From the NCBI RefSeq assembly GCF_004364555.1, contig NZ_SOAM01000003.1, positions 372,001 through 436,000 on the forward strand: DNA of 64,000 nt, read 5' to 3'. Each line of letters begins with the position of its first letter. The stretch's first letter is position 1. This DNA is from Amnibacterium kyonggiense (GTDB lineage: Bacteria > Actinomycetota > Actinomycetes > Actinomycetales > Microbacteriaceae). Positions 36,525 to 55,038 of this stretch are shown piece after piece. The notes under the pieces are model-generated. The model searched no databases and was not told the origin of the DNA. It was given only the letters and a program-made list of their open reading frames with translations. The position numbers and the translations under genes are program-made.

Positions 36525-36526
36525 GC

Positions 36527-36635: not shown

Positions 36636-36647
36636 CTCCTCCACAGG
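36636..36647 (+). promoter_or_regulatory. CTCCTCCACAGG motif upstream of nuclease gene A
   Basis: CCTCCACAGG occurs 44 nt upstream of the start at 36691, and the same ten bases occur upstream of the related gene at 47679 (47602-47611). Its role is unknown. Confidence 0.35.
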
Positions 36648-36690
36648 ATGCGCGGTCGCCGCGGCCGCGACGAGGCGCCACGATCGCCGC

Positions 36691-37698
36691 GTGCACACTC
36701 CTGCCGGCGTCGCGATCGACCCCTGGCGGCTGGAGCTCGTCGTCGTCGGCGCGAGTGCGCGGACCTCGACGGAGCGGGCCGCGATCAGCCGGGACGTGGA
36801 GCGCGGTCGGCTCCTCCGCGTCATCCCCCGCGCGTACGTCGAGCGCGACGCGTTCGAATCGTTGAGTCCGGAGCAGCAGCACCTGGTCCGTATCCGAGCG
36901 GCTTCGGCGACCGCGCCCGAGCCGCTCGTGGTCTCGCACTGGTCGGCCGCCGTCCTGCACGGGCTCCCCGTGCTCCGGTCGAGGCTGCTCGACGTGCACG
37001 TCGTCGTGTCGCCGGGGCTCGACCGCCGGCGCGCGGGCCTGGCATTCCACGCGCTGGCGCTCTCCGACGCGGAGGTGACGGGACCGGCGGACCTCCGGGC
37101 GACGACGCTCCCGCGCACCGTCGTCGACGTCGCGAGCGCGACCGCGCTCGAGGAGGGCGTGCTCGCCGTCAGCGCCGCCCTGATGCGCGGCATCCCGCGG
37201 GAGGTGCTCGAAAGCGCGGCCGATCGCGCGGCCGAGCGACGCGGATCGCGGAGGATCGCGGACGCGGTCGCGATGGGCCATCCGGGCGCGGAGTCCGCCG
37301 CGGAGTCGCGCGCCTGGGTGTCGCTGATGCGCTCGGGCTTCGCGGTGCCGGAGCTGCAGCACGAGATGCACCTGTCACGCGGCGGACGGGCATCCCTCGA
37401 CGCGCTGCTCCGCCGAGAGCGCGTCGGCATCGAGGTCGACGGCGAGCAGAAGTACCTCGACCCGTCGATGGCCCCGGACGGGGCGGGTCGAGCGGTCCTC
37501 CGCGAGAAGCGCCGCGAGGACGAGGTGCGGCTCGGGCTTCGCGCCCTCGTGCGGCCGGGATGGCAGCAGTCGGGCAGCGCGTCTGCGATGCGCGCGCTGC
37601 TGGGGTCCGTCGGCGTGGTGCCGACGAACCCGCCGACGCCGTTCGCCGCCTACTGCGAGGCCGCTCGAGCGGCGCGGCCGCGTCCGCTCCCGCGCTGA
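36691..37698 (+). CDS. AbiEi-type winged-helix plus DUF559-like nuclease protein (copy A)
   Basis: The 335-aa protein has an N-terminal part resembling AbiEi antitoxin-domain proteins (RDVERGRLLRVIPRAYV, then LPRTVVDVAS near 140-149) and a C-terminal PD-(D/E)xK/Vsr-like core. The core reads SAAESRAW (202-209), SLDALL (D237), GIEVDGEQKY (E248, D250, K254) and EKRRED (272-277). It is the same architecture as the gene at 47679 but diverged. There is no adjacent AbiEii-type toxin, so it is not a standard type IV toxin-antitoxin pair. The start is GTG with CACGAT 6 nt upstream. It is flanked on both sides by related palindromes A1 and A2. The function is unknown. Confidence 0.75.
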   Translation: MHTPAGVAIDPWRLELVVVGASARTSTERAAISRDVERGRLLRVIPRAYVERDAFESLSPEQQHLVRIRAASATAPEPLVVSHWSAAVLHGLPVLRSRLLDVHVVVSPGLDRRRAGLAFHALALSDAEVTGPADLRATTLPRTVVDVASATALEEGVLAVSAALMRGIPREVLESAADRAAERRGSRRIADAVAMGHPGAESAAESRAWVSLMRSGFAVPELQHEMHLSRGGRASLDALLRRERVGIEVDGEQKYLDPSMAPDGAGRAVLREKRREDEVRLGLRALVRPGWQQSGSASAMRALLGSVGVVPTNPPTPFAAYCEAARAARPRPLPR

Positions 37699-37699
37699 T

Positions 37700-37755
37700 G
37701 GGCACTCCGCTGCGATCCGGGCCATGCGCATGGCCCGCGGTGCAGCGGAGGGCCC
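37700..37755. repeat. Palindromic repeat A2 (right of nuclease gene A)
   Basis: The left arm GGGCACTCCGCTGC (37700-37713) and the right arm TGCAGCGGAGGGCCC (37741-37755) pair at 13 of 14 positions. The centre is a perfect 18-bp palindrome, GGGCCATGCGCATGGCCC (37719-37736). It begins 2 nt after the stop of gene A. Confidence 0.75.
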
Positions 37756-37774
37756 CTCTCGCGCGGGTCGGGGG

Positions 37775-38347
37775 TCAGGCGGGGGTGCCACCCACCGGGG
37801 GCTCCTCCGCCGCCGCGGGAGCGGACGTCGGCGCCGGCGCCGCGGTGCCCGTCACGCCGAGGAGGTTGCGCGCGCGGTTCGCCACCTGCGGGTCGACCAC
37901 GAGCGAGTACGTCGACGCGACCACCTGCATGACGCTGCTGAAGTCGCGTCGGCGGCGCGAGATCGCATACGAGATCAGGCCGAAGACGATGCCGAACGCG
38001 AGGCCGAGGAGCACCGCGCCGAACAGGTAGCCCGTGCCCGGGTTGTACTGGGCGGGCGTGAAGATCGACGTCACGAGGCCGAACAGCAGGCCGAGCCAGA
38101 GTCCGGACGCCGCGCCGGCACCTGCGGCGCGGCCCCAGGAGAGCCGTCCGGTGACGCGCTCGACGCTCTTCATGTCGTTGCCGACGATGGCCGCGGTCTG
38201 GACCGGGAAGCCCTCGTTCTCCGCCAGCTTGTCGACGGCGGCCTGCGCCTCCTGATAGGTGGCATAGGTCGCGATCACCTCGCCGGTCGGCAAGGAGGGG
38301 AAGGCGACCTGCCGGCCGCCTCCGAACAGGCCCTGCGTGTTCGTCAT
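37775..38347 (-). CDS. General-stress-protein 17M-like membrane protein
   Basis: The 190-aa protein has a soluble N-terminal domain (TGEVIATYATYQEAQAAVDK, then VQTAAIVGNDMKSVERVTGRL), a Gly-rich hydrophobic pair of helices (about 70-95 and 105-130) and an Ala/Pro-rich tail. The layout matches the GSP17M/YflT-type N-terminal domain fused to a glycine-zipper membrane region, common in actinobacterial stress proteins. Its role is unknown, possibly osmotic or oxidative stress. The start MTNTQGLF at 38347 is chosen because it opens the conserved region; the longer frame is not protein-like. Confidence 0.78.
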   Translation of the reverse strand: MTNTQGLFGGGRQVAFPSLPTGEVIATYATYQEAQAAVDKLAENEGFPVQTAAIVGNDMKSVERVTGRLSWGRAAGAGAASGLWLGLLFGLVTSIFTPAQYNPGTGYLFGAVLLGLAFGIVFGLISYAISRRRRDFSSVMQVVASTYSLVVDPQVANRARNLLGVTGTAAPAPTSAPAAAEEPPVGGTPA

Positions 38348-38450
38348 GCAGAGAACATTCCCACCATCCGCTCCAGGTATCCATGGCCTCGCCTTTGCGC
38401 CGTCCATGAACGCGTGCTGCGGCGACCAGCCGGGACGGGGCTCGGCGGCC

Positions 38451-38456
38451 TACCCT
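38451..38456 (+). promoter_or_regulatory. Leaderless-type -10 (TACCCT)
   Basis: TACCCT lies 6 nt upstream of the GTG at 38463. Confidence 0.55.
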
Positions 38457-38462
38457 TGGACC

Positions 38463-39809
38463 GTGAGTACGACGCGCATCTTCGTGGCCCGCCTGGCGGG
38501 GTGCGGGGTGTTCGACCGCTCGGGCGACCGGCTCGGGCGCGTCCGCGACGTCGTCGTGGTCTACCGCCGCGCGGCGCCGCCCCGCGTGGTCGGCATGGTC
38601 GTCGAGATCCCGGGCCGTCGCCGGGTCTTCCTCTCCATCGGCCGCATCGTGTCGATCGGCGCCGGCCAGGTCATCACGACGGGCCTGATCAGCGTGCGGC
38701 GCTTCGAGCAGCGCGCCAGCGAGGTCCGCGTCGTCGCGGAGCTGCTCGGCCAGCGCATCACGCTCACGGACGGCTCCGGCGAGTCCACGGTGGAGGACGT
38801 CGCGATCGAGCAGGTCGGCCCGGCGGAGTGGGAGGTCGAGCAGGTCTTCGTCCGCCGCCCGCGCACCGGCCCGGCCCCCTTCGGCCGCGGCGCGACCGCC
38901 TTCGTGAAGTGGTCGGACATCCGCCAGAACGACACGGGCGGCCGCGGGCAGTCGGCTGCGCAGCTGATCCAGTCGATGGCCGACCTCCCGGCCGCCGACC
39001 TCGCCTCCACGCTCCTCGACCTGCCGGAGCAGCGCATGCTCGAGGTGGCGAACGAGCTCACCGACGACCGCCTGGCCGACGTGCTCGAGGAGATGCCGGA
39101 GGAGGCGGGCGTGAAGATCCTCGCCCGCCTCGGCGACGACCGCGCCGCGGACGTGCTCGAGGTGATGCAGCCGGACGACGCGGCCGACCTGATCGGCAAG
39201 CTCTCCGACGAGCGCAGCGAGGCGCTCCTCGGCCTGATGGAGTCGGAGGAGGCGGACGACGTCCGCATGCTCCTCGCCTACGACCCCGACACCGCGGGCG
39301 GCATGATGACGCCGGACCCGATCATCGTCTCCGCCGACGCGACCGTGGCGGAGGGCCTGGCGCTCATCCGCCGGCACGAGCTCGCGCCTGCGCTCGGCGC
39401 CGCGGTCTGCGTCACGCAGCCGCCGTACGAGCCGCCGACGGGGCGCTTCCTCGGCATCGTGCACTTCCAGCGGATGCTGCGCTACCCGCCGCACGAGCGC
39501 CTCGGCAGCATCCTCGACACCCAGACGGAGCCGGTGCGGGCGAACACGTCCGCGGCGGAGGTCTCGCGCATCCTCGCGACGTACAACCTCGTGCAGGTGC
39601 CCGTGGTGGACGAGAACCACCGCCTCGTCGGCGTGGTGACGGTCGACGACGTGCTCGACCGGCTGCTGCCGGACGACTGGCGATCGAGCGACGCCGCCGA
39701 CGACGACAACGACGAGGCGCTCCCCCGGGTGTCGACCGACACGTCCGCGATCACCACCGTCCCGCAGCGCGTGCCGTCGAGGAGGAGCCCCCGTGGCCGC
39801 GCCCGGTAG
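38463..39809 (+). CDS. PRC-barrel / MgtE N-domain / CBS-pair protein lacking a channel domain
   Basis: The 448-aa soluble protein has PRC-barrel-like repeats (about 1-150), then the MgtE intracellular N domain: superhelical repeats such as LPAADLASTLLDLPEQRMLE, LADVLEEMPEEAGVKILARL and AADVLEVMQPDDAADLIGKL. Two CBS motifs follow (YDPDTAGGMMTPDPIIVSADATV and VVDENHRLVGVVTVDDVLDRLL). The five-helix MgtE Mg2+ channel is absent. Actinobacteria carry this channel-less form next to DUF1003 and mrp genes (Rv1232c region). It may sense Mg2+ or nucleotides. The DUF1003 start overlaps its end by 17 bp. Confidence 0.88.
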   Translation: MSTTRIFVARLAGCGVFDRSGDRLGRVRDVVVVYRRAAPPRVVGMVVEIPGRRRVFLSIGRIVSIGAGQVITTGLISVRRFEQRASEVRVVAELLGQRITLTDGSGESTVEDVAIEQVGPAEWEVEQVFVRRPRTGPAPFGRGATAFVKWSDIRQNDTGGRGQSAAQLIQSMADLPAADLASTLLDLPEQRMLEVANELTDDRLADVLEEMPEEAGVKILARLGDDRAADVLEVMQPDDAADLIGKLSDERSEALLGLMESEEADDVRMLLAYDPDTAGGMMTPDPIIVSADATVAEGLALIRRHELAPALGAAVCVTQPPYEPPTGRFLGIVHFQRMLRYPPHERLGSILDTQTEPVRANTSAAEVSRILATYNLVQVPVVDENHRLVGVVTVDDVLDRLLPDDWRSSDAADDDNDEALPRVSTDTSAITTVPQRVPSRRSPRGRAR

Positions 39810-40383
39810 CCGCAGGGCGCGTCGGGACGTCGACCCGCTCGAGGCGCCGAAGGGCCTCCCCCGCGGTCGCCGACGGACGAGCCGTGATGTCTTCGGCCGC
39901 TTCTCGGAGTCGTTCGCGCGTGGGATGGGCACGTCCGGGTTCCTCATCGGCTTGACCGCGTTCGTCATCGTGTGGCTCGCCTGGAACACGTTCCTGCCCG
40001 AGTCGGCGCAGTTCGACCCGCGGGCCACGAACTTCACGCTGCTCACGCTGCTGCTGTCGCTGCAGGCCTCCTACGCGGCGCCGCTCATCCTGCTCGCGCA
40101 GAACCGGCAGGACGACCGCGACCGCGTGCAGGTCGAGCAGGACCGGCAGCGCGCCGAGCGGAACCTCGACGACACCGAGTACCTGGCGCGGGAGATCGTC
40201 GCCCTCCGCCTGCTCGTGCGCGACATGGCCTCGCAGGACTTCGTCCGCGACGAGCTGAAGGCGCTGCTCGAGGAGCTCGACCGCCGCGAGGTGAGCCGCG
40301 AGGCGGCCGCGGCGGAGCTCAGCGCGGAGGACGCCGAGGACCGCCGTCGCCGCGAGCCGCCGTCGAGGACGACCCAGCCGTGA
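39793..40383 (+). CDS. DUF1003 membrane protein
   Basis: The 196-aa protein has two transmembrane helices (about 48-66 and 80-102, the second containing LLLSLQASYAAPLILLAQNRQ), the DUF1003 hallmark, followed by a charged coiled-coil helix (RDRVQVEQDRQRAERN) and an acidic/basic tail. Function is unknown; the family often accompanies MgtE-like genes. The GTG at 39793 has GGAGGAG 5 nt upstream inside the preceding gene. It overlaps mrp by 4 bp (GTGA) at its end. It belongs to a three-gene operon with the MgtE-N/CBS protein and Mrp. Confidence 0.9.
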   Translation: MAAPGSRRARRDVDPLEAPKGLPRGRRRTSRDVFGRFSESFARGMGTSGFLIGLTAFVIVWLAWNTFLPESAQFDPRATNFTLLTLLLSLQASYAAPLILLAQNRQDDRDRVQVEQDRQRAERNLDDTEYLAREIVALRLLVRDMASQDFVRDELKALLEELDRREVSREAAAAELSAEDAEDRRRREPPSRTTQP

Positions 40384-41480
40384 GCGCCGAGGCGGTCCGT
40401 GCGGCCGTCGGCGCGGTGCGGGATCCGGAGATCCGCCGGCCCCTGAGCGAGCTCGACATGCTCGACTCGGTGGAGGTCGCCGACGGGGTCGCCCGCGTCG
40501 CCCTGAGCCTCACCGTCGTCGGCTGCCCCGCTGCGGACCGGATCGAGCGGGACGTCCGGGACGCCGCGGCGCGCGTCGAGGGCGTGCGGACCGTCGAGGT
40601 CGAGCTCGGCGTGATGGCGCCGGCCCGGCGTGCCGCGCTGTCGGAGCGGCTCCGCGGCGAGCGCACCAGCCCGTTCGGCCCGGACTCGCTGACGCGCGTG
40701 ATCGCGGTGACGTCGGGCAAGGGCGGCGTCGGCAAGTCAACGGTGACCGCGAACCTGGCCGTGGCGCTCGCGGCCCGCGGTCTCGGCGTCGGCGTCCTCG
40801 ACGCGGACGTGCACGGGTTCTCGATCCCGGGGCTGCTCGGCATCGCGCCGGACACGAGCCCGGTCGATCTCGACGGCCTCATCGTCCCGCCGGTCGCCTT
40901 CGGCGTGAAGGCGATCTCGATCGGGATGTTCCTGCCGCCGGGCGAGCGCGACGGCGCGGTCGCGTGGCGCGGACCGATGCTGCATCGCACGCTGAACCAG
41001 TTCCTGACCGACGTGCACTACGGCGCGATCGACGTGCTCCTGGTCGACACCCCGCCCGGCACGGGCGACGTCGCGATCTCCCTCGGCCAGCTGCTGCCGA
41101 ACGCGGAGGTGCTCGTGGTGACGACGCCGCAGCCGGCGGCCGCCGATGTGGCGGTGCGGTCCGGCCTCGTGGCGCGGAAGCTCGGGCAGCGCCTGATCGG
41201 CGTCGTCGAGACCATGGCGCCCGCCACGCTCCCGGACGGCTCGCTGCTCGACCTGTTCGGCTCCGGCGGCGGCGCGGCCGTCGCACAGCGGCTCGACGTG
41301 CCGCTGCTCGCCTCGGTGCCGCTCTCCGCGGCGCTGCGCCGCGCGGGCGACGCCGGAGCCCCGGTGGTGTCCGCGTCCGACGCCGATCCGGCGGCGGCGG
41401 CGCTCGACGCGCTCGCCGCCGCGGTCGGCGGGATGGGGCGCGGGCTCGGCGGCAGGCGACTGCCGGTCGGCCCCGCCTGA
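40380..41480 (+). CDS. mrp: Mrp/NBP35-type Fe-S cluster carrier ATPase
   Basis: The 366-aa protein has an N-terminal MIP18/DUF59 domain (about 3-85, containing LTVVGCPAADRI) and a ParA-like P-loop domain with deviant Walker A TSGKGGVGKST (K119), VGVLDADVHGFSIP and the switch DTPPGTGD. Mrp proteins bind and transfer [4Fe-4S] clusters. The C-terminal CxxC common in family members is not seen. The start GTG is 4-bp coupled to the DUF1003 stop; the longer frame is rejected for lack of conservation. Confidence 0.9.
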   Translation: MSAEAVRAAVGAVRDPEIRRPLSELDMLDSVEVADGVARVALSLTVVGCPAADRIERDVRDAAARVEGVRTVEVELGVMAPARRAALSERLRGERTSPFGPDSLTRVIAVTSGKGGVGKSTVTANLAVALAARGLGVGVLDADVHGFSIPGLLGIAPDTSPVDLDGLIVPPVAFGVKAISIGMFLPPGERDGAVAWRGPMLHRTLNQFLTDVHYGAIDVLLVDTPPGTGDVAISLGQLLPNAEVLVVTTPQPAAADVAVRSGLVARKLGQRLIGVVETMAPATLPDGSLLDLFGSGGGAAVAQRLDVPLLASVPLSAALRRAGDAGAPVVSASDADPAAAALDALAAAVGGMGRGLGGRRLPVGPA

Positions 41481-41487
41481 CGGCGCG

Positions 41488-41598
41488 CTAGGGGCGCCGG
41501 GTCGGAATCGCGCGGTAGCCGTCCGTGCGCACGGCGACGGCGGTGGCGACGATGCCCCACGCGCTGAGCAGCGCGAGGACGACGAGCAGGGCGGTCAT
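41488..41598 (-). CDS. 36-aa single-pass membrane micro-protein
   Basis: The ORF encodes MTALLVVLALLSAWGIVATA followed by VAVRTDGYRAIPTRRP. It has one transmembrane helix (2-23) and a basic tail ending in P-T-R-R-P. The ATG is preceded by AGAAGAAGG at a workable distance. It lies 32 nt after the stop of another micro-ORF read in the same direction, facing away from the LysR gene. I recall similar short D-G-Y-R-x-(I/V)-P-T-R peptides in related actinobacteria, which supports a real gene. Function is unknown. Confidence 0.7.
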   Translation of the reverse strand: MTALLVVLALLSAWGIVATAVAVRTDGYRAIPTRRP

Positions 41599-41630
41599 GA
41601 TGGCGGGCCTTCTTCTCGGTGTCGGGCGGG

Positions 41631-41729
41631 TCAGAAGCGGGTGCTGAACGCGGCGTCCTCGAGGAACGGCGCGGTGTGGGCGTCGAGCTGCAGCGACAGC
41701 GCCGCGGACTCGAGCAGATCGTGGGACAT
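41631..41729 (-). CDS. 32-aa micro-ORF divergent to the LysR regulator
   Basis: The ORF encodes MSHDLLESAALSLQLDAHTA followed by PFLEDAAFSTRF. It is hydrophilic and acidic, with no membrane segment or Cys. GGAG lies 6 nt before the ATG (GGAGTTCCCC). It is the first gene after the AT-rich operator region shared with the divergent LysR gene and is followed by the 36-aa membrane peptide, so the two probably form a small operon under that regulator. The short length means chance cannot be excluded. Confidence 0.5.
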   Translation of the reverse strand: MSHDLLESAALSLQLDAHTAPFLEDAAFSTRF

Positions 41730-41772
41730 GGGGAACTCCAGTGCTGCAGGTGGGAGCCGGTCGACTCCCTGC

Positions 41773-41831
41773 TGACAGTGAACCGTTCGTGACAGTAAAG
41801 AACAAGCGAATTGTTCTGCACTTCGTGTGCA
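41773..41831. promoter_or_regulatory. Probable LysR operator region
   Basis: An unusually AT-rich stretch holds three elements: a direct repeat TGACAGTRAA (41773-41782 and 41790-41799), a 7-bp inverted repeat AGAACAA/TTGTTCT with a 5-nt spacer (41799-41817) and a TGCAC/GTGCA inverted repeat (41817-41831). Such dyads between divergent genes are typical LysR-type sites. Confidence 0.6.
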
Positions 41832-41849
41832 GTTCTGCTTCACGATCTA

Positions 41850-41855
41850 TACGCT
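41850..41855 (+). promoter_or_regulatory. Leaderless-type -10 (TACGCT)
   Basis: TACGCT lies 7 nt upstream of the LysR ATG at 41863. Confidence 0.6.
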
Positions 41856-41862
41856 GCTCCCC

Positions 41863-42762
41863 ATGGACATCGGGCGCCTCGAGGTGCTGCGCGAGCTGCG
41901 GCTGCGCGGCTCCGTCACGGCCGTCGCTCGCGCGACGCACCGCACGCCCTCCGCGGTCTCGCAGCAGCTGAAGACGCTGGAGCGGGAGGTCGGCGCACCG
42001 CTGACCGAGCGGGAGGGCCGCGGTCTCGTGCTCACGCCCGCCGGCGACGCGCTCGCGCAGGCCGCTGCCGACGTGGTCGTCGCCATGGCCCGAGCGGAGG
42101 AGACGTGGCGCAGCTACCTCGCCGGGCCCGAAGGCCGCGTCGATCTGGCGACCTTCCCGACCGCGGGTCGCATGTTCCTCCCCGGGCTGCTGCTCGCGGC
42201 GAGGGCGACCCCGGGCCTCGAGGTCATGGCGGCGGACGTCGACCCGGTGCACGCCGACTTCGCGGCGATCGTGCCCGACTTCGACGTGGTGCTCGCGCAC
42301 TCCGTCGGGCCGGCTCCCTCCTGGGACGACCGGGACCTGATCCAGGTGCACCTCGTCGACGAACCCCTCGATGTCGCGCTCCCCGTCGGCCACCCGCTCG
42401 CCGATCGCGACGCGGTGACCCCGGCGGAGATCGCGCAGGAGCCCTGGATCGGGGTGCCGGACGACTTCCCCTACGAGCGCCTGCACCAGGAGATCGAGCG
42501 CGTGGCGGGCACCGTGCTCCGCATCGTCCAGCGCTTCTCCGACACGCGCGTCACCGAGTCGCTCGTCGCGGCGGGCCTCGGGCTCGCCGTCCTCCCCCGC
42601 TTCACCTCCGGAGCGGAGGGCTCCGGCGTCGTGCTGCGACCGCTCGCGCAGCTCGCGCCGACCCGGCGGATCGCGGCACTGCTGCGGCGCGAGACCGCGG
42701 AGCGGCCGAGCGTCCGCCTGGTCCTCGACCACCTCCGGTCGATCGCCGCGGACCTCGGCTGA
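41863..42762 (+). CDS. LysR-family transcriptional regulator
   Basis: The 299-aa protein has an N-terminal winged helix (LEVLRELRLRGSVTAVARAT, then TPSAVSQQLKTLEREVGAPL), a linker helix and a type 2 periplasmic-binding-like effector domain with the usual VDEPLDVALPVGHPLADRD and LVAAGLGLAVLPRF segments. It likely controls its own gene and the divergent micro-ORF pair through the dyads in between. The effector is unknown. The ATG at 41863 is preferred over an upstream in-frame ATG at 41827 because TACGCT lies 7 nt before it and conservation begins there. Confidence 0.9.
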   Translation: MDIGRLEVLRELRLRGSVTAVARATHRTPSAVSQQLKTLEREVGAPLTEREGRGLVLTPAGDALAQAAADVVVAMARAEETWRSYLAGPEGRVDLATFPTAGRMFLPGLLLAARATPGLEVMAADVDPVHADFAAIVPDFDVVLAHSVGPAPSWDDRDLIQVHLVDEPLDVALPVGHPLADRDAVTPAEIAQEPWIGVPDDFPYERLHQEIERVAGTVLRIVQRFSDTRVTESLVAAGLGLAVLPRFTSGAEGSGVVLRPLAQLAPTRRIAALLRRETAERPSVRLVLDHLRSIAADLG

Positions 42763-42776
42763 GGCGGTTCAGCCGA

Positions 42777-43148
42777 TCAGGTCGCCTCGTCGTCGAAGGC
42801 CGTGAGGTTGGTCCGCCGCCGAGCGCGCTGCACCACCGGCTCGGGCTCCGGCTCATCGTCCAGCGGGTCCGCCTCGGGCTCCGTCTCGCGGCGCCGGGGC
42901 TCCGGCGGCTCGAGGAGCGCATCGCGGATGATGCGACGCGGGTCGTACTGGCGCGGGTCGAGCTTGCGCCACTCCTCCTCGTCGAAGTCCGGGCCCAGCT
43001 CCTCGCGGACGCGGTCCTTCGCGTCGTCGAGCATGCCGCGCGCCGCGCGCACGAACCGGCCGAGCCGGGCGGCGTAGTCGGGGAGCTTCTCCGGTCCCAC
43101 GAGGAACAGCGCGAGGACCGCGATGAAGATGAGCTTCGACGGATCCAT
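42777..43148 (-). CDS. tatB: Sec-independent translocase subunit TatB
   Basis: The 123-aa protein starts with a short transmembrane helix (about 4-20, LIFIAVLALFLVGPEKLPDYAARLGRF): the Glu is placed as in TatB, followed by the F-x-x-x-G-P-E-K-L-P hinge, an amphipathic helix (GRFVRAARGMLDDAKDRV) and a charged acidic/basic tail. Together with TatA/TatC, encoded elsewhere, it exports folded twin-Arg proteins such as EfeB and the flavoenzyme in this window. The ATG at 43148 is 6 nt behind TACGCT. It lies between LysR and the O-methyltransferase, as in actinobacterial synteny. Confidence 0.88.
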   Translation of the reverse strand: MDPSKLIFIAVLALFLVGPEKLPDYAARLGRFVRAARGMLDDAKDRVREELGPDFDEEEWRKLDPRQYDPRRIIRDALLEPPEPRRRETEPEADPLDDEPEPEPVVQRARRRTNLTAFDDEAT

Positions 43149-43154
43149 CGCTGC

Positions 43155-43160
43155 AGCGTA
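43155..43160 (-). promoter_or_regulatory. Leaderless-type -10 (TACGCT)
   Basis: TACGCT lies 6 nt upstream of the tatB ATG. Confidence 0.6.
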
Positions 43161-43198
43161 GATCACCGGAGCGCCGGGGGACGGCAGCGCACTGCCCC

Positions 43199-43204
43199 TA
43201 GGGT
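43199..43204 (+). promoter_or_regulatory. Leaderless-type -10 (TAGGGT)
   Basis: TAGGGT lies 7 nt upstream of the ATG at 43212. Confidence 0.55.
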
Positions 43205-43211
43205 GGTGCGG

Positions 43212-43838
43212 ATGGTGGAGATCGCCGCCGACCGGGCCTTCGCGGACGCATTCGCGCCCGAGGACGAGGCGATCGACGCGGCTCGCGAGGCCGCTCACCA
43301 GTTCGGGATCGACACCGTGTCCCCCGCGGTCGGCGCGGCGCTCGCCCTGGCCGCCGCGAGCGGCCCGGCGTCGTCGATCATCGAGATCGGCACCGGCACC
43401 GGCGTGTCCGGGCTCTGGCTGCTGCGGGGCGCACCGGAGGCCGTCCTCACGTCGATCGACGTCGACCTCGACCTCCACCAGGTGGCGAGAACGATGTTCC
43501 AGGCCGCGGGGCACCCCGCGCGCCGGGTCCGGCTGATCACGGGATCCGCGGCCGACGTACTGCCGCGCATGAACGAGGAGGCGTACGACCTCGTCCTCGT
43601 CGACGCCGGCTGGTCGTCGGTGCTCGACGACGTCGAGCGCGCGCTCCGTCTCGCCCGGCCGGGCGGCTCGGTGCTCGTCCCCCGCGTGCTGCAGGGCGGC
43701 CGCACGGCCGATCCCGTGCGGCGCGACCCGGAGACGACGGCCTACCGGACGCTGCTGCGCGCCGCGCGGGAGCGCACGGACGTCGTCACAGGCCTGTCGA
43801 TCGTCGGCGACGGGCTGCTGCACCTCGTCCGGCGCTGA
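43212..43838 (+). CDS. O-methyltransferase (class I SAM, Rv1220c-like)
   Basis: The 208-aa protein carries the SAM-binding motif SIIEIGTGTGVSGLWLL (about 55-71), LTSIDVDLDLHQVARTMF, an acidic VLVDAGWSS and a C-terminal strand-rich part. It matches the caffeoyl-CoA O-methyltransferase-like family conserved next to tatB/sigE in actinobacteria. The substrate is unknown. The start MVEIAADRAF at 43212 is chosen by TAGGGT 7 nt upstream and by the family's N-terminal helix. A strong hairpin terminator follows the stop. Confidence 0.87.
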   Translation: MVEIAADRAFADAFAPEDEAIDAAREAAHQFGIDTVSPAVGAALALAAASGPASSIIEIGTGTGVSGLWLLRGAPEAVLTSIDVDLDLHQVARTMFQAAGHPARRVRLITGSAADVLPRMNEEAYDLVLVDAGWSSVLDDVERALRLARPGGSVLVPRVLQGGRTADPVRRDPETTAYRTLLRAARERTDVVTGLSIVGDGLLHLVRR

Positions 43839-43855
43839 CCGCCCGCACGGTGGAC

Positions 43856-43883
43856 GAGCGCGGGCGCCGAGGCGCCCGCGCTC
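43856..43883. terminator. Bidirectional hairpin, 13-bp perfect stem
   Basis: GAGCGCGGGCGCC (43856-43868) pairs with GGCGCCCGCGCTC (43871-43883). It lies between the convergent methyltransferase and DUF3117 genes. Confidence 0.8.
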
Positions 43884-43895
43884 ACCGAGAAGCGA

Positions 43896-44063
43896 TCAGC
43901 CGATCGCTGCCGACAGCGCGTCGCGCAGCTCGGTCGCCTCGGCGTCGTTGACGGAGACCACGAGGCGGCCACCGCCCTCGAGCGGGACGCGCACGATGAT
44001 GAGGCGACCCTCCTTGACGGCTTCCATGGGCCCGTCGCCCGTGCGGGGTTTCATCGCCGCCAT
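43896..44063 (-). CDS. DUF3117 protein (55 aa)
   Basis: The 55-aa protein reads MAAMKPRTGDGPMEAVKEGR, then LIIVRVPLEGGGRLVVSVND and AEATELRDALSAAIG. It is a highly conserved actinobacterial small protein of unknown function, predicted as a beta-hairpin plus helix. The ATG follows AGAGGAAGG at 8 nt spacing, and a GATAAT -10 lies about 35 nt upstream (44097-44102). In M. tuberculosis the equivalent (Rv1211) also sits near the dap and O-methyltransferase genes. Confidence 0.92.
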   Translation of the reverse strand: MAAMKPRTGDGPMEAVKEGRLIIVRVPLEGGGRLVVSVNDAEATELRDALSAAIG

Positions 44064-44096
44064 GCGAGACACCTTCCTCTGGTGAAGTGTTCAACC

Positions 44097-44102
44097 ATTA
44101 TC
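44097..44102 (-). promoter_or_regulatory. Strong -10 (GATAAT) for DUF3117
   Basis: GATAAT on the minus strand gives a leader of about 27 nt with a good SD (AGAGGAAGG). Confidence 0.6.
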
Positions 44103-44148
44103 CCACCCGGGACCGCCACTCCCAAACCGCGATCCCCCGACTCCCTGA

Positions 44149-45390
44149 TCAGGGCACGGTCCAGTAGTCCTCGACGGGCCCGTAGCAGACCCAGAGCCAG
44201 AGCCCCTGAAGCGCGAGCGACACCAGGAGGACGAGGACCCGAGCGGACGTCGCCCGGGGCGCGACCGCCCCGGCGAGCGGCGCCATCGGCATCAGCAGCC
44301 GGAAGACGCTCGACTGCGGGAAGAAGACCGCGAGCAGGTAGAGCGCGTAGGACGCGGCCCAGAGCCGGACGGTGATGCCGAGGCGGCGCGCCCACGGGGA
44401 GAGCAGCAGCGCGGCGAAGGCGCCCACGAGCAGCAGGACCACGACCGGGGCGACCCAGGCGGCTGGTCCGGACCCGAGCACCTTCGTCGCCCAGAAGTCC
44501 GCGGCGAACAGCCAGGGCTCGAAGAAGGTGATCGAGGAGTCGGGCATCCACAGCGCGCGCCAGGCGCTCTCGGTGGCGAAGTAGGCGTCCGGTCGGCCGG
44601 TGGCGAGCGCCGCGATCCAGCTCCAGGCGAAGCCGGCGATCGCGCAGACCGCGGCGAGCAGGATTCCCGCGAGCAGGTCGTCGCGGGCGAACGCGGGGCC
44701 GCCGCGCCTCGCCCGCACGACGCGCACGAGCACGTGGAGGCCGACCGCGAGCGCGAGCGCGAGGACGCCGGGCCGTGTGAACGCCAGCACCAGGGCGAGC
44801 GGGACGGCAGCGAGGTAGCGCCCGCGGTCGACCAGCAGCAGCGCGGCGAGCAGGAGCAGCAGCCCGAGCGACTCCGCGTACGTCGTCTGGAACATGAACG
44901 CGAGCGGCGAGCAGGAGAACAGGGCGGCGGCGAACACCGCGCGGTCGCGGCCGACGTGCGGGAGCAGCAGGGCGGCGAGGAGGACCGCCGCACCGCAGCC
45001 GGCGAGCACGCTCACCGCGAGCGCCGGGATCCGCCAGTCGACGACGCCGAGGCTGAGCGCCTTCGCGAGGTACGGGTAGACGGGCAGGAACGCCCACTGG
45101 TTCGTGTCGACGGCGCCGGAGGCGGTCAACGGCAACGTCGACGGGTACCCGTTCTCCGCGATGTACCAGTACCACTGGCCGTCCCACGCGCTGACCAGAT
45201 CGAGGAACGTCCCCCCGGGCTTCACCCGCGACCGCGGCGTCGCCTGCGACCAGACCCAGAGGAACAGCACGGTCGTGACGACTCGGGAGGCGCCGAAGAT
45301 CAGCAGGACGACGCCCCACCAGGGCAGGCGGGAGGCGGCCCGCGGCTCCGGCTTCGCCGTCGGCGCCGGAGCCGGCGCGGTGGAGGTCAC
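44149..45390 (-). CDS. PIG-V-like polytopic mannosyltransferase
   Basis: The 413-aa protein has about nine transmembrane helices and a GT-C-type outer loop. The loop after helix 1 holds WDGQWYWYIAENGY, resembling the WD-x-x-x-Y motif of PIG-V/GT76 mannosyltransferases that use polyprenyl-phosphate mannose, followed by NQWAFLPVYPYLAKAL. A likely role is in envelope glycoconjugate or lipoglycan assembly. The N-terminus is Pro/Ala-rich and cytosolic. The GTG start overlaps the dapE stop by 4 bp (GTGA), so expression is linked to dapE. The frame upstream of that GTG is antisense-like and rejected. Confidence 0.82.
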   Translation of the reverse strand: MTSTAPAPAPTAKPEPRAASRLPWWGVVLLIFGASRVVTTVLFLWVWSQATPRSRVKPGGTFLDLVSAWDGQWYWYIAENGYPSTLPLTASGAVDTNQWAFLPVYPYLAKALSLGVVDWRIPALAVSVLAGCGAAVLLAALLLPHVGRDRAVFAAALFSCSPLAFMFQTTYAESLGLLLLLAALLLVDRGRYLAAVPLALVLAFTRPGVLALALAVGLHVLVRVVRARRGGPAFARDDLLAGILLAAVCAIAGFAWSWIAALATGRPDAYFATESAWRALWMPDSSITFFEPWLFAADFWATKVLGSGPAAWVAPVVVLLLVGAFAALLLSPWARRLGITVRLWAASYALYLLAVFFPQSSVFRLLMPMAPLAGAVAPRATSARVLVLLVSLALQGLWLWVCYGPVEDYWTVP

Positions 45391-46463
45391 GCGCCGGTCA
45401 GCCACGCCCGCAGGCCCGCCTCGACGGCGTGGATCTGATCGACCGGGACGTACTCGTCGTCGGTGTGCGCCTTCAGCGGGTCGCCGGGGCCGTAGTTCAC
45501 GGCCGGGATCCTGAGCCCGGCGAAGCGGGCGACGTCCGTCCAGCCGTACTTCGGTCGCGGCTCGGCGCCGACGGCCTCCACGAACGCCTTCGCGATCGGG
45601 ACGTCGAGGCCCGGGCGGGCGCCGGCGGCGATGTCGACGATCCGGACGTCGAACCCGGCGAACACCTCCTCGATGTGCCGCACGGCCTCCTCCGGCGAGC
45701 GCGACGGCGCGAAGCGGTGGTTGACCTGCACGACGCACTCGTCCGGGATCACGTTGCCGGCGACGCCGCCGTGGATCGTGACCGCGTTGAGCCCCTCCCG
45801 GTACACGAGCCCGTCGACCTCCACCGAGCGGGGCTCGTACGCGGCGAGCCGGTCGAGGATCGGTGCGGCGAGGTGGATCGCGTTCACGCCGATCCAGCCG
45901 CGTGCGGAGTGGGCGCGCCTGCCGGAGGTGCGGATCTCGGCGCGGAGGTTGCCGTTGCAGCCGCCCTCGATGCCGGCGATGCTCGGCTCCCCCAGGATCG
46001 CGAAGTCGGCCTGCAGCTCCTCCGGGTGCTCCTGCAGCAGCCGGTTGAGGCCGTTCAGGTCCTCCCCGACCTCCTCGTGGTCGTACCAGATCCACGTCAC
46101 GTCGGGCAGCGGCTCGGCCAGCTCCGCGGCGAGCTTCAGCTGCACCGCGGTGCCGGCCTTCATGTCCGTCGTGCCGCGGCCGTAGAGCCGCCGTTCCCCG
46201 TCGACCTCCTCGAACCAGGTCGGGAGGTTGTCGTTCAGCGGCACCGTGTCGATGTGCCCCGCGATCGCGACGCGGATCGGCCGGCCGAGCTCGGTGCGCG
46301 CGACGATCGTGTCGCCGTAGCGGCGGACGGTGAGGTGCGGCACGGCGCGGATCGCGGCCTCGATCAGGTCCGCGAGGGGGCCCTCGTTCCCGGAGACGCT
46401 CTCCACGTCGCAGATCGCCTGCGTGAGCAGCACGGCATCGGCGGTCAGATCCAGGCCGGGCAC
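45387..46463 (-). CDS. dapE: Succinyl-diaminopimelate desuccinylase
   Basis: The 358-aa M20 metallopeptidase converts N-succinyl-LL-DAP to LL-DAP for lysine and peptidoglycan. Metal ligands and catalytic residues are visible: AGHIDTVPLND, GRGTTDMKAGTAV, YDHEEVGEDLNGL, LGEPSIAGIEGGC and the C-terminal AHTDDEYV. The start GTG at 46463 (VPGLDLTADAVLL) is chosen by TACGCT 6 nt upstream; the longer frame to 46673 is antisense to dapD. It is divergent from dapD, so the two consecutive-pathway enzymes share a 61-bp promoter region. Confidence 0.93.
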   Translation of the reverse strand: MPGLDLTADAVLLTQAICDVESVSGNEGPLADLIEAAIRAVPHLTVRRYGDTIVARTELGRPIRVAIAGHIDTVPLNDNLPTWFEEVDGERRLYGRGTTDMKAGTAVQLKLAAELAEPLPDVTWIWYDHEEVGEDLNGLNRLLQEHPEELQADFAILGEPSIAGIEGGCNGNLRAEIRTSGRRAHSARGWIGVNAIHLAAPILDRLAAYEPRSVEVDGLVYREGLNAVTIHGGVAGNVIPDECVVQVNHRFAPSRSPEEAVRHIEEVFAGFDVRIVDIAAGARPGLDVPIAKAFVEAVGAEPRPKYGWTDVARFAGLRIPAVNYGPGDPLKAHTDDEYVPVDQIHAVEAGLRAWLTGA

Positions 46464-46469
46464 CCGCCA

Positions 46470-46475
46470 AGCGTA
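46470..46475 (-). promoter_or_regulatory. Leaderless-type -10 (TACGCT) for dapE
   Basis: TACGCT lies 6 nt upstream of the dapE GTG. Confidence 0.6.
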
Positions 46476-46512
46476 GCGAGCGCGGCCGTCCGAGCCCGCT
46501 CGGCGCCCTGGA

Positions 46513-46518
46513 TAGCCT
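46513..46518 (+). promoter_or_regulatory. Leaderless-type -10 (TAGCCT) for dapD
   Basis: TAGCCT lies 6 nt upstream of the dapD ATG at 46525. Confidence 0.6.
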
Positions 46519-46524
46519 GGTCGG

Positions 46525-47460
46525 ATGAGCGATCCGCAGCGGACCGGCTGGGGCCACGGCCTCGCGACCAGGACGAAGGACGGCACGGTCCTCGACGTGT
46601 GGTTCCCCTCCCCCGCGCTCGGCGCCGCCCCGGAGGCGGACCCGCCCCGCGCGCTCGAGGCCGAGGAGCACATCGACGAGCTGCGCCGCGTGCGGATCGA
46701 GGCCGTGACGGTCGAGGCGGCGCTCGACGAGCCGGTCGTGTCGACCGCCGACGCCTACCTGCGCCTGCACCTCCTGTCGCACCTCGTCGTCGCGCCGAAC
46801 ACGGTCTCGCTCGAAGGGCTGATGGCGCACCTGCCGATCAGCGCGTGGACCCCGCGCGGGCCGATGCTGCCCGTCGACGCGCAGCGACGCCTGCCCGCGC
46901 TGCGGCGGGCCGGCCTCGAGGTGATCGGCCTCGACCGCTTCCCGCGTCTCACCGACTACGTCCTCCCGGACCGCGTGCGGATCGCGGACGCCGGGCGCGT
47001 GCGCCTCGGCGCGCACCTCGCGCCGGGCACGGTCGTGATGCACGCGGGCTTCGTCAACTTCAACGCGGGCACGCTCGGCACGTCCATGGTCGAGGGCCGC
47101 ATCAGCCAGGGCGTGGTCGTCGGCGACGGCTCGGACGTCGGCGGCGGCGCGTCGATCATGGGGACGCTCTCGGGCGGCGGGACGCAGCGGGTGTCGATCG
47201 GGCGGCGCAGCCTCCTCGGCGCGAACTCCGGCCTCGGCATCGCGATCGGCGACGACTGCGTCGTGGAGGCGGGCCTCTACGTGACGGCGGGCACGAAGCT
47301 GACGCTCCGCGTCCCGGGCCAGGAGCCGCGGACGGTGAAGGCCGTCGAGCTCTCGGGCCAGGACGCGTGGCTGTTCCGCCGGAACAGCGTGACGGGCGAG
47401 GTGGAGGCGGTCCCCCGCACGGGCCCGGGCATCGCCCTGAACCCGACCCTCCACGCCTGA
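46525..47460 (+). CDS. dapD: Tetrahydrodipicolinate N-succinyltransferase
   Basis: The 311-aa enzyme succinylates tetrahydrodipicolinate in the succinylase branch of DAP synthesis. It has an actinobacterial-type N-terminal domain (MSDPQRTGWGHGLATRTKDG) and a left-handed beta-helix of hexapeptide repeats (VRIADAGRVRLGAHLAPGTV, IMGTLSGGGTQRVSIGRRSL, LGIAIGDDCVVEAGLYVTAG) with MHAGFVNFNAGT. It partners with dapE, which is transcribed divergently. Expression is probably leaderless. Confidence 0.94.
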   Translation: MSDPQRTGWGHGLATRTKDGTVLDVWFPSPALGAAPEADPPRALEAEEHIDELRRVRIEAVTVEAALDEPVVSTADAYLRLHLLSHLVVAPNTVSLEGLMAHLPISAWTPRGPMLPVDAQRRLPALRRAGLEVIGLDRFPRLTDYVLPDRVRIADAGRVRLGAHLAPGTVVMHAGFVNFNAGTLGTSMVEGRISQGVVVGDGSDVGGGASIMGTLSGGGTQRVSIGRRSLLGANSGLGIAIGDDCVVEAGLYVTAGTKLTLRVPGQEPRTVKAVELSGQDAWLFRRNSVTGEVEAVPRTGPGIALNPTLHA

Positions 47461-47494
47461 CCTCCCGCCCGACCGGCCCCGGAACACCGTTCCC

Positions 47495-47550
47495 GGGCGT
47501 GATCTCGCAGCCCGGGCCACGACAGACGCCCGTCTGGCGAGATCACACCC
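47495..47550. repeat. Palindromic repeat B1 (left of nuclease gene B)
   Basis: Arms GGGCGTGATCTCGC (47495-47508) and GCGAGATCACACCC (47537-47550) pair at 13 of 14 positions. An inner CGGGC/GCCCG stem is also present. It is related to repeat B2 downstream of the same gene. Confidence 0.75.
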
Positions 47551-47601
47551 GCGCGACGGCCGAACTCCGCGCGGCACGAGCCCGCCGCGCGCCCCACGCC
47601 C

Positions 47602-47611
47602 CCTCCACAGG
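47602..47611 (+). promoter_or_regulatory. CCTCCACAGG motif upstream of nuclease gene B
   Basis: The same ten bases occur upstream of gene A (36638-36647). Here they lie 67 nt before the ATG. Function is unknown. Confidence 0.35.
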
Positions 47612-47678
47612 GCCGATGTCGGCGCCGGAGCACTGATCGCGCCCGGCCGCAGGGCGGCTCGGCCCGAGGATCGCCGTC

Positions 47679-48605
47679 ATGGATCCCGTCCGCGGCCGCG
47701 AGTCGCTCCTCCTCGTGCGGCATCGGAACCACACCGGCTTGAGCTCGAGCGCGCTCACCCGAGGCGCCCGGAGCGGAGACCTCACCCGGCTCCGGAGCGG
47801 CGCGTTCGTCAGGACCGACGTGTGGAGCGCGCTGTCGCCGGACGAGCGCATCCGTCTGGAGGTCGCCGCCGCTGCGGCCGTCCACCGGGGTTCGTTCACG
47901 GCGTCGCACCGGAGCGCCGCAGCGCTGTGGCGGGCGCCGCGGATCCAGCGGCACGACGGTCTCGTGCACCAGCGGGTCTCGGTGACGACCGGGAGCAGGA
48001 CGGAGCACGGCATCCGGAAGCACGCCGTGGCGGACACCGACCTCCACCTGACGCGGATCGACGGGATCGAGGTGACCGACCTTCCTCGCACCGTGCTCGA
48101 CCTCGCGGCGACCGAGCCCTTCACGGCCGCGGTGGCCGTCGCGGACTGGGCGCTGCGCGGGGGCGTGACGAAGGAGCGCCTCATCACCTCGTTGGACGAG
48201 TGGAGCCCGCTGCGCAACCGCGCTCGCATCGAACGGGTCATCGCGTTCGCGGACCCGCTCGCGCAGGGCGCCGGCGAATCGGTGAGCCGCGTCCAGATCG
48301 CCGAGTGCGGGCTGCCCGCTCCGGTGCTGCAGCAGCGGTTCGACGACGAGCTCGGCCTGATCGGCTTCGTCGACTTCTTCTGGCCGGCCTTCGACCTGAT
48401 CGGGGAGTTCGACGGGTTGGTCAAGTACCGGAAGCCCGAGTACATGAACGGCAGGACCGACGCGGACGTGGTCATCGACGAGAAGCGGCGTGAGGATCGG
48501 CTGCGAGCGACGCCCCGGCGACCGGGCGTCACCAGGTGGATCTGGTCGACGCTGAGCCCGGTGGGCCGGCTCGAAGCGCAGCTCCGCAGCGCGGGCCTTC
48601 GATGA
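47679..48605 (+). CDS. AbiEi-type winged-helix plus DUF559-like nuclease protein (copy B)
   Basis: The 308-aa protein has an N-terminal AbiEi-like winged-helix region (LTRGARSGDLTRLRSGAFVR), a middle part with LPRTVLDLAAT (135-145) and a C-terminal Vsr/DUF559-like nuclease core. The core has GESVSRVQIAECGLPAPVLQ, FVDFFWPAFDL (D232), IGEFDGLVKY (E243, D245, K249) and EKRREDRLR (268-276). The core is more canonical than in copy A. No toxin partner is adjacent. The ATG has GAGGAT 7 nt upstream, a near match to the leaderless signature. Palindromes B1 and B2 flank the gene. The function is unknown; candidates are DNA repair or nicking of structured DNA, or a selfish or defence role. Confidence 0.78.
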   Translation: MDPVRGRESLLLVRHRNHTGLSSSALTRGARSGDLTRLRSGAFVRTDVWSALSPDERIRLEVAAAAAVHRGSFTASHRSAAALWRAPRIQRHDGLVHQRVSVTTGSRTEHGIRKHAVADTDLHLTRIDGIEVTDLPRTVLDLAATEPFTAAVAVADWALRGGVTKERLITSLDEWSPLRNRARIERVIAFADPLAQGAGESVSRVQIAECGLPAPVLQQRFDDELGLIGFVDFFWPAFDLIGEFDGLVKYRKPEYMNGRTDADVVIDEKRREDRLRATPRRPGVTRWIWSTLSPVGRLEAQLRSAGLR

Positions 48606-48607
48606 AG

Positions 48608-48667
48608 GCGGGCGTGACATCGCAGTCCGGGCGCTCGTCGACGCCCGGATTGAGAGATCACGCCCGC
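48608..48667. repeat. Palindromic repeat B2 (right of nuclease gene B)
   Basis: The outer arms GCGGGCGTGACATC and GAGAGATCACGCCCGC pair imperfectly. The inner CCGGGCG (48627-48633) and CGCCCGG (48642-48648) pair perfectly. The left half shares GGGCGTGA and TCGCAG with B1. It begins about 3 nt after the stop of gene B. Confidence 0.7.
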
Positions 48668-48692
48668 TCAGGCGCCGAAGGACGCGGGCGGG

Positions 48693-49976
48693 TCAGCGGA
48701 GGTGGCGCTCCGGGGGGCCCACGTAGAGCTGCTGCGGGCGGCCGATCTTCGTCGCCGGGTCCGCGTTCGCCTCGCGCCAGTGCGCGATCCAGCCGGGGAG
48801 GCGACCGATCGCGAACAGCACCGTGAACATGCGGGCCGGGAAGCCCATCGCCTTGTAGAGCACGCCCGTGTAGAAGTCGACGTTCGGGTACAGGCGCCGC
48901 TCGATGAAGTAGTCGTCCTCCAGGGCGATCTGCTCGAGCTCGCGGGCCAGGTCGAGCAGCGGGTCGACGACGCCGAGCGCGTCGAGCACCTCGTCCGCGC
49001 TCTCCTTCACGAGCTTCGCACGCGGGTCGTACGACTTGTACACCCGGTGGCCGAAGCCCATCAGGCGGACGCCCTCCTCCTTCTTCTTCACCCGCTCGAC
49101 GAACTTCTCGACGCCCTCGCCGGAGTCGCGGATCTGGGCGAGCATCGTGAGCACGGCCTCGTTCGCGCCGCCGTGCAGCGGGCCGGACAGCGCACCGATG
49201 CCGGCCGCGACGGAGACGAACATGTTCGCCTCCGTCGAGCCGACGAGCCGCACCGTGGAGGCGGAGGCGTTCTGCTCGTGGTCCTCGTGGAGGATCAGCA
49301 GCCGCTCGAGCGCCTTCGACATCACCGGGTCGACCTCGTACGGCTCCGCGTTCGTGCCGAAGTTCAGCCGGAGGAAGTTGTCGACGAACGACAGCGAGTT
49401 GTCCGGGTACAGGAACGCCTGGCCGAGCGTCTTCTTGTGCGCGTAGGCGGCGATGACCGGCAGCTTCGCGAGGAGGCGGATCGCCGCGCCCTCGATCTGC
49501 TCCGGGTCGTGCACGGACAGCGAGTCCTCGTAGTACGTGGACAGCGCGCTGATGCCCGACGACAGCACCGTCATCGGGTGGGCGGTGTGCGGCAGCGCGC
49601 CGAAGAAGTGGCGCAGGTCCTCGTGCAGCAGCGTGTGCCGGCGGATGCGCGCGTCGAACTCCGCGAGCTCCGACTCCGTCGGCAGCTCGCCGTGGATCAG
49701 GAGCCACGCGACCTCGAGGTAGGTCGAGTGCTGCGCGAGCTCCTCGATCGGATACCCGCGGTACCGGAGGATGCCCTGGTCGCCGTCGATGAAGGTGATC
49801 GCGGACTTCGTCGACGCGGTGTTCACGAACCCGTTGTCGAGCGTCGTGAGCCCGGTCTTCCTGGTCAGACCGGCGATGTCGATGCTCGAGGCGCCCGCGG
49901 TGGCGGGCAGGATCGGGAACTCGGCGGACCCGCCCGGGTACTGCAGGGTGGCGGTCTCGCGATCGGCGTCGGTCAC
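48693..49976 (-). CDS. gltA: Citrate synthase
   Basis: The 427-aa type II citrate synthase condenses oxaloacetate and acetyl-CoA in the TCA cycle. The catalytic elements are visible: GPLHGGANEAVL, GFGHRVYKSYDPRA and the terminal Asp region YPNVDFYTGVLYKAMG. The N-terminal beta-strand domain (ATLQYPGGSAEFPILPATAG) is that of hexameric Gram-negative/actinobacterial enzymes. The GTG start follows TAGGCT by 6 nt. The ferredoxin gene lies directly upstream on the same strand but has its own stop 38 nt away. Confidence 0.96.
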   Translation of the reverse strand: MTDADRETATLQYPGGSAEFPILPATAGASSIDIAGLTRKTGLTTLDNGFVNTASTKSAITFIDGDQGILRYRGYPIEELAQHSTYLEVAWLLIHGELPTESELAEFDARIRRHTLLHEDLRHFFGALPHTAHPMTVLSSGISALSTYYEDSLSVHDPEQIEGAAIRLLAKLPVIAAYAHKKTLGQAFLYPDNSLSFVDNFLRLNFGTNAEPYEVDPVMSKALERLLILHEDHEQNASASTVRLVGSTEANMFVSVAAGIGALSGPLHGGANEAVLTMLAQIRDSGEGVEKFVERVKKKEEGVRLMGFGHRVYKSYDPRAKLVKESADEVLDALGVVDPLLDLARELEQIALEDDYFIERRLYPNVDFYTGVLYKAMGFPARMFTVLFAIGRLPGWIAHWREANADPATKIGRPQQLYVGPPERHLR

Positions 49977-54970: not shown

Positions 54971-54986
54971 AGAGCGGTGCCGGCCC

Positions 54987-55033
54987 GCACTCTTCGTTCC
55001 GTAGGACGCCGGGTCCTACGGAACGAAGAGTGC
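54987..55033. repeat. Palindrome D1 with 21-bp perfect stem between efeB and typA
   Basis: Arms 54987-55007 and 55013-55033 are exact complements (the left arm starts GCACTCTTCGTTCCG) with a 5-nt loop. It lies between convergent stops and is bidirectional. It shares the GCACxCTTCGT core with palindrome D2 at 57625. It could be a terminator or a dispersed palindromic repeat. Confidence 0.8.
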
Positions 55034-55038
55034 GCGCG

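Follow-up and report, generated by a model that had tools for sequence, protein, structure and literature searches.

How does a single nuclease gene come to lie between two similar palindromes, and do the protein and the palindromes belong together? This question is raised by gene B, which occupies positions 47679–48605 (forward strand) of a 64-kb stretch of the Amnibacterium kyonggiense genome (this whole stretch is referred to as the window, and its genome as G000). The open reading frame of gene B encodes a putative AbiEi-nuclease fusion of 308 amino acids; its neighbours, as read by eye, are dapD and gltA. The two palindromes reported in the first-pass annotation on either side of the gene were indeed found: the left one (GGGCG - core - CGGGC ... 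GCCCG - core - CACCC) at positions 47494–47552 and the right one at positions 48608–48667, where they form the edges of the element. Both are imperfect, with arms of 24 nt (complementarity 79%) in the left palindrome and of 26 nt (85%) in the right, and the left arms of these two ~59-bp palindromes are 88% identical over 24 nt. The sequence GGGCGTGANNTCGCAGNCCGGGC (up to three mismatches) matched the window three times, in every case inside one of gene B's two palindromes, compared with a mean of 0.11 matches in 100 shuffled versions of the window. An Rfam search of the locus yielded zero matches.

The structure model of the gene B protein (pLDDT 94.9) revealed an N-terminal half (residues ~18–210; positions 47730–48308, forward strand) composed of a winged helix and a second domain, whose predicted structure has the fold of AbiEi (6y8q; Foldseek probability 1.00). 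A PADLOC AbiEi profile matched residues 18–210 of the protein (E 1.9e-8), and one such model matched 72 of 77 relatives. When these 77 members were compared with Pfam (E <= 0.01), we obtained AbiEi_4 (30 members), AbiEi_1 (2) and two single stray matches; a Y1 (HUH tyrosine) transposase was absent. PHROGs gave zero matches for the 77 members, NCBIfam gave none for gene B and one stray match among the 77, and a search of the PDB by sequence returned one match only (E 0.97).

The C-terminal half (residues ~195–308; positions 48261–48602, forward strand) is nuclease-like, as suggested by conserved residues, homology and a weak direct fold match to Vsr (probability 0.51, E 0.62). The acidic and lysine residues typical of PD-(D/E)XK enzymes are conserved in this predicted nuclease: E200, D232, D245-G and K249 are invariant in the 77 relatives, with the nuclease motif reading E243-x-D245-G-x-x-K249. 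Residues E268, K269, R271 and E272 are likewise invariant, partly by construction, since the peptide with which 80 of the loci were found contains them. The stronger argument for a PD-(D/E)XK nuclease-like domain, ahead of the direct fold match, is homology to a distant clade (probability 99.9 over the full length and 98.7 for the C-terminal part), where DUF559 and/or REase_MTES_1575 were matched by nine of the ten members scanned (E <= 0.01; some of the matches below the Pfam cut-off). Judging from the dN/dS values of ten close pairs (0.08–0.28), the putative nuclease gene is under purifying selection.

The window contains a second locus of this kind. Gene A (positions 36691–37698, forward strand; the GTG start at 36691 was picked by eye, and the homologous part spans 36733–37617) is a paralogue with 30% identity to gene B (matching region 36733–37602), and it is bordered by a different pair of palindromes, at positions 36527–36582 on the left and 37697–37758 on the right. 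The presence of two such loci, each with its own palindrome pair, had been recognized in the first-pass annotation, which in fact understated the situation: the A. kyonggiense genome carries eight such genes (E <= 0.01). At all eight the similarity of left to right flank exceeds the threshold (scores of 23.5–61.5 against 21, the weakest being L003), and the palindrome sequence differs from locus to locus. The flanks of two more distant homologues in this genome (L217 and L218) match as well. Scanning the window for long palindromes gave eight, gene B's left palindrome not being among them; three of the eight had 19 as the best repeat offset together with a surrounding element, and they are palindromes of genes A and B. 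Positions 54983–55037 hold a long and almost perfect palindrome (CGCACTCTTCGTTCCGTAGGAC...) that lacks the 19-bp repeat; it is possibly a solo copy of another family or a terminator.

The sample as a whole comprised 139 loci (132 distinct), five of the 139 having too little flank, and the relatives from the contig search were the best 80 of 407, so that the taxonomic range given here is a lower bound. With the threshold for a matched pair set at the 99th percentile of cross-locus flank scores, left and right flanks were similar above it at 102 of 134 loci, and matched palindrome pairs at or above it were present at 98 of 127 distinct loci; the same flank-similarity test detected no matched pair at the other 29, among them the copy at gene B's junction in G003 (L011). 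The whole unit measures ~1.2 kb (median 1210 bp), and its hosts include at least Microbacteriaceae, Arthrobacter, Cellulomonas and Georgenia, as well as a bin titled Acidobacteria (two loci). Identical palindromes were shared by L030 and L009, and by L032 and L012. In the distant clade (L200–L219, ~30% identity) the flanks exceeded the 99th percentile at 14 of 20 loci, one of which (L204) has a direct repeat in place of a palindrome; the 19-bp repeat was above threshold in 0 of 10 palindrome-bearing loci of this clade that were checked. The distant DUF559 clade with its matched palindromes may be a second version of this partnership.

Between the left palindrome and the start codon of gene B lies a conserved motif, CTCCACAGG (positions 47603–47611, forward strand), for which a promoter, a binding site or a part of the mobility unit are candidate roles. 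CTCCMCAGG (up to one mismatch) was found upstream of the gene at 73 of 130 loci, compared with 4/130 downstream, 6/130 on the reverse strand and 21/130 in shuffled sequence. The CTCCACAGG/CTCCCCAGG motif is kept upstream of many relatives despite their differing palindromes.

The palindromes themselves share an internal architecture. A direct repeat at an offset of 19 bp was detected in 125 of 196 palindrome segments, compared with 29/196 at 20 bp, at most 17 at each other offset from 8 to 39, and 5.7 in gene windows. Counted by locus, at least one palindrome carries the 19-bp repeat at 76 of 98 loci (the next best offset reached 18/98), and at a lower threshold both palindromes do so at 66 of the 98. 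Within the genus, 40 of 42 pattern matches of the gene-B family are exactly 56 bp long, although the pattern permitted eleven lengths. Analysis of symmetry in 36 of these 42 copies, from four of the seven genus genomes, revealed three symmetric blocks per arm, namely GGGCG, an xCGAC-like core and CGGGCG, where the letters GGGCG and GGGC and their 19-bp spacing were preset by the search pattern and are not independent observations. The core blocks pair in 28–35 of the 36 copies, with changes on both sides, whereas most spacer positions pair in just 3–18. For this reason the gene-B palindrome seems to resemble the duplex target of a symmetric protein complex more than an RNA hairpin.

Proteins and palindromes have diverged together at short range. 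Among non-syntenic pairs with a protein identity of at least 0.55, the mean palindrome similarity was 13.15, compared with 9.07 after permutation (24 pairs, p = 0.0005), and the same test restricted to the genus gave p = 0.0008 (19 pairs). Below an identity of ~0.55, palindrome similarity falls to near background, so that specificity appears to turn over quickly. The overall Mantel test was weak (Spearman rho 0.09, p = 0.02), and several pairs near 0.6 identity have little palindrome likeness (e.g. L021–L025). At the level of these comparisons, protein-palindrome co-divergence is steep and short-range. A stronger link for the DNA-binding domain was unclear: Spearman values were 0.04 for the N-terminal, 0.11 for the middle and 0.02 for the C-terminal part, and the top 1% of pairs had mean palindrome scores of 11.3, 11.0 and 10.2, respectively. 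The first-pass annotation had proposed that protein and palindrome co-diverge like a recogniser and its target, and that protein subgroups and flanking palindrome families should correlate across homologues. The correlation is there above ~0.55 identity; recognition of the palindrome by the protein is what we infer.

Dispersal of palindromes away from the gene was examined for two families, those of gene B and of L139. The gene-B pattern matched G000 at 16 places (reversed control, 1): one at gene B, whose left palindrome misses the exact search pattern, two at the paralogue L002 and 13 as solo palindromes. The copies in this genome fall into two sub-families, one (C4:322240, C1:1340640 and C1:956014) whose cores resemble TCTCGCAG, the type present at gene B, and one with the CGACGA/CGACAG cores seen at L002. 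Matches in the remaining six members of the genus number 3, 1, 4, 7, 1 and 10. Comparison of 36 of the 42 copies showed those within a genome to be somewhat more alike than those from sister genomes (12.7 versus 11.4 out of 19 letters, p = 0.0005). Outside the genus the gene-B pattern is at background overall (10 matches in 58 genomes versus 9 for the reversed control); the three matches in G009, and likewise the three in G057, may represent separate families. In G031, which belongs to another genus, the L139 palindrome was found at 22 further places (E <= 1e-3). Solo palindromes of an AGCAGGA family were also read by eye at two different junctions, in G005 (L157) and G002 (L256).

The surroundings were read for 27 solos (13/13 in G000, 9/10 in G006 and 5/22 in G031). 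Nineteen of them lie between converging genes, six between co-directional genes and one between diverging genes, and one was ambiguous; these are raw counts, without a genome-wide expectation, and neighbour orientation was taken from codon-score gene calls. No target-site duplication was seen at the 27 solos, direct similarity of the flanks being as in shuffled pairings (p = 0.40), nor were their flanks complementary beyond chance (p = 0.14). The genome of G006 (100% complete) has 10 matches to the gene-B pattern and no gene of that clade, which indicates either that solos are independent of a resident gene or that the gene was lost. These 10 dispersed gene-B-type palindromes, together with one at the dapD–gltA junction (L159), are orphan palindromes.

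Comparison of corresponding sites between species revealed several alternative states, which also fits the first-pass annotation: by species, several sites hold the element, a solo or neither. At the dapD–gltA junction the element lies on one strand in G000 and is inverted relative to it in G001, G003 and G004; the same junction carries a single palindrome of the gene-B family without a gene in G006, a palindrome of another family in G005 and a decayed remnant of the nuclease gene in G002 (L155). In other genera, it contains a solo in G010 (L175; 19-bp repeat read by eye), a distant homologue in G017 (L162) and, in several cases, nothing of the kind. At the nrdF junction a solo is present in G000 and missing from G002, and the site of L002 has neither gene nor palindrome in G001, although the genes that border it in G000 are separated by more than the element alone. 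Hence the gene is not always found at its place with non-palindromic flanks, and the correlation described above is present; either of the opposite outcomes would have spoken against the first-pass annotation.

Many loci have both flanks in common (465 pairs), e.g. next to putative guaB, lpdA–accA and tuf–rpsJ genes. Same-site pairs with a protein identity of at least 0.7 have the same orientation in 15 of 15 cases, and those with an identity of 0.5–0.6 are inverted in 12 of 32; the pairs are non-independent, and those with ambiguous or one-sided synteny were left out. In the protein tree L002, which occupies another site, clusters with the dapD–gltA genes of the sister species, with gene B outside (support 94/85), and a same-site clade was disfavoured by the AU test (p = 0.023); the groups were named after the identities had been seen. 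This topology suggests movement of the gene between sites, with either gene B as a separate arrival or L002 as the gene that moved. The reading is suggestive and not firm, because a clade uniting this genome's two proteins was not rejected either (AU p = 0.054).

We consider it probable that gene and palindrome constitute a REP-like two-part element, in which the nuclease recognises its palindromes and spreads or maintains them. In the sequences compared, the element is marked by matched pairs, the 19-bp repeat, dispersed solos, presence or absence of the locus, same-site inversion, short-range co-divergence and purifying selection on the gene; that the protein binds and cuts the palindromes and drives their spread is the presumed part. 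The first component would be a dyad-symmetric DNA site of ~56–60 bp, and the second a single gene, located between two sites of its own, for a protein with an AbiEi-type DNA-binding domain and a PD-(D/E)XK (DUF559/Vsr-like) domain. Most likely the AbiEi half would bind the symmetric blocks as a dimer or higher multimer, which is plausible because AbiEi proteins bind sets of multiple inverted repeats, according to PMC7319586, and the nuclease half would nick or cut at the bound site. Repair or recombination between copies would then (i) give rise to solo sites at other intergenic places, (ii) transfer an occasional copy of the gene from one site to another, with the symmetry of the site allowing both orientations, and (iii) keep the two flanking sites alike. 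With drift in the specificity of the protein, the site family would drift along. Gene and palindrome have the look of a small, self-spreading unit whose enzyme is not known for such activity. More tentatively, they could represent a new class of mobile element, with a 19-bp-phased dyad site, REP-like solos, a gene that moves and flips by break repair, and, within a single genome, many protein-site pairs of independent origin whose specificities drift separately.

Several observations count against the two-part element: the solos of G006 occur without a gene of the gene-B clade, 29 of the 127 loci have no matched pair, target-site duplications are missing at the 27 solos, co-divergence is short-range with no clearly stronger link for the DNA-binding domain, the tree test is marginal, and the 19 of 27 solos between converging genes are placed where terminators or regulatory sites also lie. 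Moreover, inversion and exchange could result from homologous recombination between palindromes, with no need for the nuclease. A homing-type endonuclease, which would cut solo palindromes and have its gene inserted there by break repair, with a palindrome-gene-palindrome copy as the template, overlaps with the two-part element and is possible, if not likely; on this view the palindrome would be the target and its own spread a separate matter. Such an enzyme would account for a dapD–gltA junction occupied by a solo in G006 or by the gene, in opposite orientations, in G000, G001, G003 and G004, as well as for the movement suggested by the tree, and a symmetric target predicts insertion in either orientation. 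However, with its flanking sites intact the element would cut itself, the empty site of L002 in G001 has no palindrome, and the solos, which outnumber the genes, would need another means of spread. The many same-site loci common to several genera also look like long residence and not like frequent homing.

If the protein were an AbiEi-type regulator, the palindromes would be its operators, the solos its regulon, and the nuclease half would be secondary. We regard this as unlikely in view of the second full palindrome behind the gene, the conserved nuclease residues and the position of the solos (19/27 between converging and 1/27 between diverging genes), although symmetric blocks with poorly paired spacers do resemble a duplex protein site, and the promoters of AbiEi and Rv2827c carry sets of inverted repeats to which these proteins themselves bind (PMC7319586). 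Ordinary bidirectional terminators, carried along with the gene or duplicated through gene conversion, would fit the location at gene ends and between converging genes and the hairpin-like symmetry. At least five T in the next eight bases were found at 0 of 391 palindrome sides (taken from alignment edges), which argues against plain terminators, and the palindromes were not classed as intrinsic terminators, which consist of a stem with a T run behind it; terminators of an actinobacterial kind that lack T runs remain compatible. Since the two terminator-like matches in positions 36400–48800 do not fall on the palindromes of genes A and B, termination does not need a 19-bp repeat or a fixed 56-bp length (40/42 matches), the spacers pair poorly, and the sequence families differ per locus yet match across the gene, this explanation appears improbable. 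Equally improbable is a passive element moved in trans by another transposase, with the gene as cargo, e.g. an anti-phage nuclease: PADLOC models do call the N-terminal half AbiEi, but the palindrome family tracks the protein and not the genome, and the 27 solos lack target duplications. This last feature argues against a classical transposon in general, and the element was not assigned to the classical insertion sequences or transposons.

The system closest to it in its working is RAYT/REP, whose RAYT genes are under purifying selection, yet the element is not a RAYT. Like the REPtron, i.e. a RAYT/TnpAREP with its REP/REPIN palindromes as described in PMC3116915, PMC8266576 and PMC3733652, it consists of one gene with a palindrome on either side and further copies of these palindromes scattered through intergenic DNA, with several families per genome and co-divergence of gene and palindrome families. 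It differs in that the protein combines AbiEi and PD-(D/E)XK domains in place of an HUH tyrosine transposase, in that the gene B-type gene inverts at its site, and in the site itself, which has 56–60 bp, a 19-bp internal repeat and duplex-like blocks, unlike the 20–40 bp REP element, a short hairpin next to a GTAG or CGTC tag. With the HUH Y1 transposase absent from all 77 members and the fold being that of AbiEi, the element was not filed under RAYT/REP.

The two N-terminal domains resemble, by profile and fold, the AbiEi antitoxin of type IV AbiE systems (PDB 6y8q), from which the protein differs by its added nuclease domain and by sites that lie on both sides of the gene and are dispersed; where a gene for the AbiEii nucleotidyltransferase toxin would be expected, the neighbours of gene B, the locus read by eye in this respect, were taken to be dapD and gltA. 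The C-terminal domain is related, by profile homology via the distant clade, to DUF559 / REase_MTES_1575 / Vsr-like PD-(D/E)XK nucleases, unlike which it is fused to AbiEi and tied to palindromes. Homing endonuclease genes are stand-alone nuclease genes with sites that are present or absent, and both features recur here. In contrast to them, two intact palindromes flank the gene and many solos exist; if the palindrome is the recognition site, insertion has left it uninterrupted, a full palindrome being present on both sides, and the element was not classed with these genes.

Among the matches listed in the open-access literature, AbiEi-nuclease genes with flanking or dispersed palindromes were not described. 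We rate the architecture of protein and site as categorically new, and the mechanism as a proposal. Dispersed palindromes are common in bacteria, and to our knowledge only RAYT/TnpAREP enzymes are generally tied to their spread. If the two-part element is real, a second, unrelated enzyme would show the same arrangement, and gene-palindrome partnerships would have arisen independently. Some proteins labelled AbiEi would then be something other than antitoxins, and dozens of natural protein-site pairs would be available for reading a DNA-recognition code. The identity of the spreader of REP-like repeats in these high-G+C bacteria thereby becomes testable.
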